64,000 bases of DNA from contig NZ_CP009528.1 of assembly GCF_000970025.1 (NCBI RefSeq), positions 124,001 through 188,000 of the forward strand. The letters are read 5' to 3'. This document shows, one piece after another, positions 32,698 to 56,590 of the stretch. This DNA comes from Methanosarcina barkeri MS. Lineage in GTDB: Archaea; Halobacteriota; Methanosarcinia; Methanosarcinales; Methanosarcinaceae. Within the stretch, counting starts at the first letter, position 1; each line of letters starts with the position of its first letter. The notes beneath the pieces were generated by a model, which did not search any database, was not told the origin of the DNA, and was given only the letters and a program-made list of their open reading frames with translations. Position numbers and translations under genes: made by a program.

Positions 32698-34074
32698 TTA
32701 GAATACAAGTCCCAGGTCTTCGAGCTTCTTCCTTGCTCCGTCGTAGACCTGCATGTACTCTTCAGTTGGTGTTACTGTCTTTACGTCGTAGCATTCCTGG
32801 AAGGTCTTTCCTGCTGGTGCGCTTGCATAATTCTTTTCGTAAAGAGATACAAGCTTGTCAAGTATTACATTTACTTCTGAGATTTCCACACCTGCGGTTG
32901 CCCTTGCTACTTCTCCCATCATCCTGGCTTCCATACCTGTGGTCTTGTCGGTAACGACACCCTTTGCTGATGCTACTCCTGAGAGAATTTCTCTGCCTGA
33001 AGCGGTGTCGGTAATTGATTGGGCTGAAGCTTCTAGCAGGCACATCTCAGTGCATGGTCCTGCACATGGGTAGTACTGGTTACCTGACAGTATGTCCGTA
33101 AATTCGGAAATTGTTGCACATGCCCAACCTGCAATCATCAGTGTCTCTCTGGTGTTGGTTGAACCCCAGCGGATGTGGACAGGGCCGTCAAGGTGCCAAC
33201 TTGCACTGCTCATGAGAACAGCGTTAATGTGGGTTGCAACATCTACAATTGTTGTTTCTTCAATTCCGCCTGCATACCCTCCAAAGATCGGCATCTGTTC
33301 GTCCATAATGATGTCGCTGTTCCCTTTGTAGTGAGCAATAACTGAAATTGCATCAAGATCAATCTTGAGTTCGTTTAGTTGCGAGACCTCGTGGCTGTCC
33401 GTGCAGGTCATTCCGCCGGTACAATCAGCGGAAATGTTTCCCTGAGCGGACAGGGAGGTCTCTGGGCCCTAGACACCCATGCCAGGCCTACCCGCCATGG
33501 CGCAAGCATTCTTAATTAACCTTGTTTCGGTCTTTGCAGCAAGGACCTCATAAGGACTTTTTGGAATAGGTGATTTCCCACGTACAGAGGTCATTACACC
33601 GTTAACAATCGTGTCTACTTCCTTTTCCAGGGCATAGCTCATGTGAACAGGCATAAACACGTCTTCGGAAATTGGAGAACCGGTAGGCCCGCCCTGTACG
33701 ATTGGTTTTGCCTTGTCACCAACACTTCTCTTTCTTACATTAACGGCATCCCTGCCTGTACCGAGTACAAACTCCTTCTGCACGTTGTTAATTGCATCCC
33801 AGATTTCGTCTTCAGTGTACTTTACGATTCTGTGGGTATCGGTACAGTAAATTCCGCACTCAAGTAACATCTCAAAGCCGGCTTTGAAGAGTTTTTCCAT
33901 CATGTCCTTGTCTGTCGGGATAAACTCTCCCTTGAAGTCAAGCCCGTACTTCTGCTTGAGTTCCATTGCCTTCATTGGGATCTTCATAAGGTCCCAGTCG
34001 TCCTGGGTGCACTTTTCTCCTACTTTAGCTCTGTCGTAGAAATCATAGCAGTCAAATGATTTTCTAAATGTCAT
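32698..34074 (-). CDS. mtmB: Monomethylamine methyltransferase with pyrrolysine at codon 202
   Basis: One 458-aa protein interrupted only by an in-frame amber codon at 33471-33469. The sequence reads MAGRPGMGV, UAG (Pyl202), then GPETSLSAQGN, exactly the MtmB context. The N-terminal part begins MTFRKSFDCYDFYDRAKVGE; the C-terminal part ends ARKKLEDLGLVF. MtmB is a TIM-barrel homohexamer that moves the methyl of monomethylamine to the Co(I) corrinoid of MtmC; pyrrolysine holds the amine. The ATG follows GGGAGG, and mtmC lies 19 bp upstream. A reader that stops at UAG would split it falsely in two. Confidence 0.97.
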
Positions 34075-40803: not shown

Positions 40804-40875
40804 GGGAACCTGATCATGTAGATCGAATGGACTCTAAATCCGTTTAGCCGGGTTAGATTCCCGGGGTTTCCGCCA
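40804..40875 (+). tRNA. pylT: Pyrrolysine tRNA (anticodon CUA)
   Basis: A 72-nt unit beginning GGGAACCTGATCATG and ending GGTTTCCGCCA. The acceptor stem pairs 5' GGGAACC with 3' GGTTTCC (one G-U pair), discriminator G, CCA encoded. The anticodon CTA is at 40834-40836 within CTCTAAA. The short D arm and one-base spacing between acceptor and D stems are tRNA-Pyl features. It reads UAG. Confidence 0.97.
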
Positions 40876-54650: not shown

Positions 54651-54877
54651 TTGTTTCCCCCCATTCTCGAATTTACACCCTAATAATTCTACTCTTCAAT
54701 TCTTCTTTTTGAAGCCAGATCTACGCACGCCATTGCTTTTTGTTCAATCTTTTTTTCAAAAATATTGTTTTAAAAAGTTTGTTTTGAAGCCAGATTCACG
54801 AACAACCTTTTCTTTTTGGTTAACTTTTTTCAAAATGTTGCCTGACACAGCTTCCTTGATTTTTAAATTCTGGATTT

Positions 54878-55420
54878 TCACTGCGTCTCTTCGTATACGA
54901 TGTTTTCTGAGACTTTTTTATTCCTTTTACCGCAACTGAAGATTCTTTCAGGTTTAAATCTCGCACGTACGACAAGTACTGGAACCTTTGCATGCCTTAC
55001 AACTTTTTCTGATACGCTTCCAAGCATGAAACGTTCAGTCCCGCTTTTTCCAGTAGACCCTATGACAATCATGTCAACTTTATGATTCTCAGCAAAATCC
55101 AGGATTTTTTCAGCCGGATTTCCTTTAAGCAGTATAGGCGTAGCTTCTATTCCGGCAGCTTTTGCATTTTCTTCTATGAGACTTATTGCCTCACTACCAA
55201 TTATCTCAAACATCGCGTAGACATTTTTTACAGACGTTTCATCCATCAGAACTGAGTCAAGAAAAGTTACATCGATGACATATATAGCATAGATCTTTGC
55301 CCCACTGCTCCTCGCAATTTCTATCCCGTAATCCGCTACGTTTTCAGAAGCTTTTGAGCCGTCAGTAGCTATCAGAATTTGTTTTTGCGGTTTGGATTTA
55401 AGTTCGCTGCTCTCCTCTAT
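54878..55420 (-). CDS. Universal stress protein with apparent ATA start codon
   Basis: A UspA-type protein of about 180 residues. The ATP-binding motif is GSTGKSGTERFMLGS near the C-terminal part, preceded by ILIATDGSKASENVADYG near the N-terminus. The full domain is only obtained if translation starts at ATA 55420-55418 (IEESSELKSKPQKQ), which lines up with the ATG of the paralogue at 56590 (MEGNIEIKSKPRRQ) and follows GGAGGGGGAGTAGGT. No ATG, GTG or TTG occurs in the first 58 codons; the first ATG (55246) would cut the domain. See findings. Confidence 0.75.
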   Translation of the reverse strand: MEESSELKSKPQKQILIATDGSKASENVADYGIEIARSSGAKIYAIYVIDVTFLDSVLMDETSVKNVYAMFEIIGSEAISLIEENAKAAGIEATPILLKGNPAEKILDFAENHKVDMIVIGSTGKSGTERFMLGSVSEKVVRHAKVPVLVVRARFKPERIFSCGKRNKKVSENIVYEETQ

Positions 55421-55734
55421 ACCTACTCCCCCTCCGTACGTACTCTCCTCTGTACTTACTCCCCTTAGATATGGATCTATTATTTGTTGTTAGATCTGTT
55501 GTTAGATCTGTTTTGTTAGATCTGTTGTTACTGAGTCAATATCGGAATCTATCTTATTGTTTACTGATTTATATTTTTACAATTGCTTTTGTGATCGGAG
55601 ACTTCATTACTCAAAAGATAAGTTCCAAAGATAAGTTCCAAAGACAAGTTCTAAAGACAAGCTTTAAAATAACAAATTTTGAATTTGAGATTGGTTCACT
55701 AAAATATTCCGGTTTTTGTCCTTTTTACGGTCTT

Positions 55735-55900
55735 TTTCTGTGTATGGCAAGTACCGGAACCTTTGCGTTCCTGACGATTTTTTCGGATACACTTCCAAGA
55801 AGGAGGCGTTAGACATCGTTTTCCCCTCACTTAACCGTGTATCTATTCCGGTATTTATTGCCTGTGCACCATTCTCCGAAACATCAGTAAGCAATCAGGA
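55735..55900 (-). pseudogene. Universal stress protein fragment
   Basis: The minus strand encodes a C-terminal UspA end (LLGSVSEKIVRNAKVPVLAI), with flanking residues in other frames (ALSEGK-type), so only a frame-broken relic of a third Usp copy is left. Confidence 0.7.
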
Positions 55901-56095: not shown

Positions 56096-56590
56096 TTATT
56101 CCTGTATCAATTTTTTCTCACTTTTGTGTCGTTCTCGAACAACCAGAACCGGAATTTTTGCATGCCTTATAACTTTTTCAGATACGCTTCCAAGTAGTAC
56201 GCGCTCATATCCACTTTTTCCAAGCGAACCCATTATGATCATATCGATATTATTATCCTCTGCAAAAGTCACGATCTTCTCAGCCGGATGGCCTTTAAGC
56301 ACCCTGGATTCAACTTCCACTCCTGCAGCTTTTCCAATCTTCTCTATATAAGAAGTTGCTTCACGTCCTTCTTTCTCGAATTCTTCAAGCACTTTGTCTG
56401 ACCAGATTTTATCCAGCGGAACTGAGCGATAAGGTGTCGTATCGATGACATAAATAGCATATACTTTTGCCCCACTACACCCAATCATTTCGATTCCAAA
56501 ATCTGCAGCTTCGTTTGCAGTTTCTGAGCCATCGGTAGCGATTATTACCTGCCTTCTCGGTTTGGATTTAATTTCAATATTTCCTTCCAT
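56096..56590 (-). CDS. Universal stress protein (UspA family)
   Basis: A 164-aa protein starting MEGNIEIKSKPRRQVIIATD. The ATP-binding G2xG9xG(S/T) motif is MGSLGKSGYERVLLGSVSEK, preceded by IIATDGSETANEAADFG. It is the intact member of a three-copy array with 54878-55420 and the relic near 55800. Usp proteins bind ATP and are induced in stress; exact role unknown. Confidence 0.92.
   Translation of the reverse strand: MEGNIEIKSKPRRQVIIATDGSETANEAADFGIEMIGCSGAKVYAIYVIDTTPYRSVPLDKIWSDKVLEEFEKEGREATSYIEKIGKAAGVEVESRVLKGHPAEKIVTFAEDNNIDMIIMGSLGKSGYERVLLGSVSEKVIRHAKIPVLVVRERHKSEKKLIQE

Follow-up and report, generated by a model that had tools for sequence, protein, structure and literature searches.

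A predicted AUA start codon in a universal stress protein gene of Methanosarcina

The window analysed here (64,000 nucleotides; G000:C2:124001-188000, from a Methanosarcina genome of 4.57 Mb) contains, on the minus strand, a universal stress protein (Usp) gene at 54878–55420 that is very probably functional and translated from an ATA codon at 55420, with AUA acting as a rare but regular start codon in Methanosarcina. As judged from the sequences, selection maintains the ATA position, the Shine-Dalgarno (SD) sequence and the frame from codon 2 onwards, and the observation reflects neither a sequencing error nor a dying gene.

The gene and its start site

The gene is part of a tandem Usp locus on the minus strand, comprising a paralogue with an ordinary ATG start (56096–56590, 57% identical to the ATA gene), what remains of a third Usp gene, now decayed, between this paralogue and the ATA gene (55740–55826; G000:C2:179740-179826), where a Pfam match contains a stop and the frame is just 27 amino acids long, and the ATA gene itself, with 180 codons from the ATA followed by a TGA (54878–54880). 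Its product matches Pfam PF00582 at residues 13–152 (54965–55384, minus strand) with E = 7.4e-35 and 121 bits against a cut-off of 24, covering positions 3–141 of the 141 in the profile. The curated cut-off is exceeded along the whole domain, placing the product in the Universal stress protein family and bearing out the original prediction of a full Usp domain. Residues 121–135 (GSTGKSGTERFMLGS; 55016–55060, minus strand), as read from the translation, carry G-2x-G-9x-G-S, a form of the motif G-2x-G-9x-G(S/T) known from MJ0577-type Usps; by this motif the product would be an MJ0577-type, predicted ATP-binding Usp.

Read on the minus strand, the start region is ...CGTAC GGAGGGGG AGTAGGT ATA GAG GAG AGC AGC GAA CTT AAA TCC AAA CCG... 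The ATA (55418–55420) follows the SD sequence GGAGGGGG (55428–55435) after a spacer of 7 nt, exactly as had been predicted, and the N-terminal IEESSELKSKP aligns with MEGNIEIKSKP of the paralogue, which also confirms the proposed pairing of the ATA with the ATG at 56590. From the upstream in-frame TAA, ATG, GTG and TTG are absent over 81 codons (23 before the ATA, the ATA, and 57 more). The original prediction was right about this absence but placed it over 58 codons after the preceding stop, a figure that in fact describes the distance from the ATA to the ATG at codon 59 (55244–55246, minus strand). This ATG, the first usual in-frame start, lies inside the Usp domain, has an SD score of 0 and is an unlikely alternative. 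The mRNA structure at the ATA site is unremarkable (z = −1.2), and a scan of the locus for bacterial promoters and terminators, using models that are not applicable to archaea, returned nothing above chance.

ATA starts among orthologues and in other genes

Fourteen genomes carry the gene, the orthologues in the 13 other Methanosarcina genomes being 69–93% identical. The original prediction had proposed checking other strains. Across species, the same site is ATA in six (G000, G030, G028, G004, G029 and G003) and ATG in seven (G014, G018, G012, G026, G013, G021 and G015), with no other codon in any of the 13 alignable orthologues; the fourteenth, in G005, is frameshifted. The gene tree requires ATG and ATA to have replaced one another at least twice, with a minimum of three changes on the best tree, and the tree of the flanking ycaO-like gene requires three. 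The start-codon mutation considered originally therefore holds as a historical substitution (at least 2–3 times) but not as an inactivating event. The direction of change is not fixed by the trees, as two histories would fit equally well: either ATA persisted in a single long-lived lineage, going back to ATG in G026, and a separate change took place in G029, or ATG was lost three times. The Usp gene (54872–55465) shares 94% DNA identity with G030, with flanks at 87–89%, and 82% with G004, with flanks at 91%, suggesting either recombination or exchange between lineages, or rapid evolution. In four further genomes (G002, G027, G008 and G025; L032, L033, L034 and L035) a single frame of 300–330 amino acids joins the homologue to a Usp domain upstream of it, so that a start of its own is not needed there.

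The same genome contains two more Usp genes in which no usual start precedes the domain and ATA stands where their paralogues have ATG, one at G000:C2:3878848 (...GGGGGG AAA TAA ATA ACT CTT...) and the other at G000:C2:1968340 (...GGGGGA TTTTAC ATA GAG AAC...). The orthologue group of the first has ATA in 4, ATG in 2 and GTG in 3 members, and that of the second, which includes some close paralogues, has ATA in 8, GTG in 3, ATG in 17 and CTG in 1; the two groups together also include one broken copy. Replacement at the start position is thus confined to start codons, namely ATA and ATG in the window gene and ATA, ATG and GTG in the two Usp groups, apart from the one CTG and the one broken copy. 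A stop codon stands immediately before the ATA in three genomes (L004 group); on the opposing side, an in-frame ATG occurs at codon 10 in the L010 Usp group. We collected 152 distinct Usp frames from the genus; a usual start is missing from 14 of them, and in every one of these the start position is occupied by ATA.

Outside the Usp family, we scanned 400 kb of G000 (317 coding frames) for frames in which an SD and ATA precede the first usual start. The scan returned the window gene and also a phosphoribosyltransferase gene (G000:C2:79076-79780; L076:19076-19780). The start of the latter, behind an SD that is GGAGG in nearly all cases, is ATA in 26 of 27 Methanosarcina genomes and ATC in the remaining one. 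The sole usual start nearby is the GTG of codon 7, in place of which G013 and G022 have GTA; in G019 the ATA comes immediately after a TGA. At the position of the ATA, three species of a sister genus have ACG, and another genus has ATG; in more distant genera the start lies three codons earlier and is ATG in nearly all, with TTG in three. No other near-cognate start in the analysis makes as strong a case as that of the phosphoribosyltransferase. In G007 this gene (L355, L356) occurs as two fragments separated by about 1.5 kb, as though an insertion had divided it.

The same scan of 400 kb each in G001, G004 and G030 (about 275–390 frames per genome, bringing the survey to four genomes) pointed to a radB-like recombinase gene with ATA at its start in G030 (L129:16306-16971; G030:C2:4442058) and in G001, the next usual start being codon 25. 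An FMN-reductase-like gene has ATA in G030 versus ATG in G004 behind near-identical upstream sequence, its Pfam domain beginning at residue 1, and a second FMN-reductase-like gene has an apparent ATT start after GGGGG in G004 (L107:4725-5327; G004:C2:284725) and G000. The Pfam domains of the radB-like and FMN-reductase-like products begin at residues 1–11. Several further candidates from these three genomes were discarded as antisense or leader frames. In this small, hand-filtered survey of four genomes, near-cognate starts amount to roughly 1% of the surveyed genes. ATA is conserved at the phosphoribosyltransferase throughout the genus and at the radB-like gene in two distant species. Of the two options originally offered, that of an uncommon start is supported: six species retain the ATA in an intact gene, and ATA starts recur in the two other Usp groups and in genes of other families, where they are interchanged with ATG and GTG.

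Elsewhere in the window, a 256-codon frame (32701–33468) directly follows an in-frame stop, has no usual start at its head and is 94% identical in G001. Its sequence resembles that of a methylamine methyltransferase gene downstream of the TAG (pyrrolysine) codon, and a tRNA-Pyl gene is found at 40804–40875.

Coding constraint, the leader and alternative readings

The alternative that survives best, itself improbable, is that the start codon was lost and the ATA gene is a young, untranslated pseudogene. It draws on the decay of the neighbouring third Usp copy, on the frameshifted G005 orthologue and on the G000/G030 pair, in which the N-terminal 57 codons differ by 8 nonsynonymous and 3 synonymous changes, counts that by themselves do not reject neutrality (P = 0.62). 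All 8 of these replacements are, however, conservative (P = 3e-4). Against a neutral expectation of 72% nonsynonymous changes for codons 2–58, all of which lie ahead of the ATG at codon 59 in the window gene, the ATA clade of G028, G003 and G004 gives nonsynonymous to synonymous ratios of 3:8 and 8:15 (P = 0.0025 and 0.0002). Constraint from codon 2 is thus seen in the substitution counts of this clade, and in G000/G030 in the conservative nature of the replacements rather than in the counts; in the L004 Usp group, where changes are few, the N-terminal tests were not significant. Purifying selection extends over the whole frame, with omega of 0.12–0.28 within same-clade ATA pairs. The full-length frame is kept in all six ATA species, with no internal stop or frameshift in any of these orthologues, while the neighbouring remnant and the G005 copy are disrupted; neither the frame disruption nor the neutral evolution that would mark a pseudogene was found. 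Of the nine one-step losses of ATG, ATA alone occurs in the six orthologues, and likewise in the two other Usp groups, and its retention in 26 of 27 phosphoribosyltransferase genes argues in the same direction. The 5' leaders are conserved among close genomes too, and a survey of close genomes alone is hence uninformative.

Less probable still is a start at the ATG at 55246, which would yield a shortened protein of 122 amino acids. In its favour, no usual start precedes it in the open frame, and N-terminal constraint in G000/G030 looks weak by substitution counts alone. Starting there would nevertheless cut into the Usp domain, which begins at residue 13, with loss of strand 1 and the ATDGS motif; the ATG has no SD, and codons 2–58 are under selection in other ATA species (the G003/G004/G028 clade).

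We calculated a pairing energy of about −10 kcal/mol between GGAGGGGG and the presumed sequence of the 16S 3' tail. Among random ATA triplets across 400 kb of the genome, only about 1.5% have an SD this strong at the right distance, which places GGAGGGGG above about 98.5% of such contexts, and GG.GTANGT is conserved upstream of the start in the orthologues. With related sequences counted as independent, the median SD energy is −9.85 kcal/mol at 10 ATA Usp sites compared with −6.4 kcal/mol at 138 usual Usp starts. We considered whether the strong SD compensates for the ATA and rejected this, because the SDs are just as strong where orthologues of this gene start with ATG, implying that a strong SD permits the ATA rather than compensating for it.

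In G000, G030, G014, G004, G003 and G028 the leader contains units of 13–17 nt, each with an SD and an ATA-, ATG-, ACA- or ACG-like triplet. Nine motif copies lie within 150 nt in G030, five are found in G014 and three in G000 (55421–55464, minus strand), where direct reading gives units of 14–17 nt (GGGGAGTAAGTACA / GAGGAGAGTACGTACG / GAGGGGGAGTAGGT+ATA). The stretch 55421–55464 amounts to a minisatellite of ribosome-binding-site-plus-start units whose copy number is very variable between species. Exchange between such units is a plausible source of the ATG/ATA variation. G029 has an ATA start and no leader repeats, indicating that the repeats are not required.

These repeated SD-start units could also invite a reading in which translation begins upstream, at another codon or in another frame, and reaches the domain by frameshifting or reinitiation; in G028 an upstream ATG unit indeed opens a short overlapping frame that ends within the first codons of the gene. 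We regard this as highly improbable. In the 70 nt upstream of the ATA there is no ATG, GTG or TTG in any frame in G000, which makes an upstream start combined with a frameshift unlikely, and the same holds for G003; moreover, the upstream units are not conserved and are lacking in G029, and the ATA of the L004 group comes immediately after a stop codon. A sequencing or assembly error for ATG, which could explain a single-base difference in one genome, is already refuted by the ATA common to six independently assembled species and by its presence in 26 genomes at the phosphoribosyltransferase.

Possible mechanism and relation to known systems

Initiation at the AUA would begin with the strong SD positioning the 30S subunit at this codon, where Met-tRNAi (anticodon CAU) may accept AUA in the P site despite the third-base mismatch, so that the protein would begin with Met. 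Such initiation would be weaker than at AUG, probably a fraction of AUG efficiency, and might keep the level of an ATP-binding-type Usp low or make it sensitive to the status of initiation factors. The same mechanism could operate in the two further Usp genes, the phosphoribosyltransferase gene, the radB-like gene and the FMN-reductase-like genes. A wider reading, on which our confidence is evenly balanced, is that AUA is a regular but rare start (about 1% of genes), genus-wide at some loci and enriched in Usp genes, perhaps a low-efficiency start responsive to the archaeal initiation machinery, and that the tandem SD-start units may supply ATG/ATA variation in one species group. Since gene finders normally accept only ATG, GTG and TTG, genes starting with ATA are shortened, overlooked or annotated as pseudogenes. 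The AUA start is directly testable, as several Methanosarcina species are genetically tractable, and the natural ATG/ATA/GTG orthologue pairs provide ready-made controls.

A 2021 review of archaeal recoding limits the demonstrated cases of non-canonical translation to the elongation and termination steps (PMC8211752), a list that conserved AUA starts would extend to initiation. Our literature search, mostly without subscription papers, found no report of an archaeal AUA start; an 'ATG-ATA' match in Halobacterium nadA proved to be a laboratory-strain mutation. In bacteria, near-cognate starts are established: infC, ccpN and citZ of S. aureus start with AUA and cvfC1 with AUU, as does infC of E. 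coli, and the S. aureus AUA and AUU starts, which lie behind extended SDs, reach about 10–30% of AUG in reporters (PMC13009471). Like the bacterial cases, the predicted AUA starts of Methanosarcina combine AUA with a strong SD, conservation between species being known there for ccpN (PMC13009471). Unlike them, they occur in an archaeon, a group not known to possess IF3, and in genes for Usps, a phosphoribosyltransferase, a radB-like protein and FMN reductases, and ATA and ATG have been exchanged repeatedly among orthologues. A survey of 61,358 ancestral AUG starts reported switches to GUG, UUG, CUG and AUU, those to CUG and AUU in single digits, with AUA unmentioned (PMC5622118). As in GUG/UUG switching, the start codons of Methanosarcina orthologues change between related genomes with the frame kept, but here the switch involves AUA. 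Compared with PF00582 Usps of the MJ0577 type, the predicted product is alike in its full domain and G2xG9xGS motif, and the gene stands apart solely by its start codon and its SD-repeat leader.
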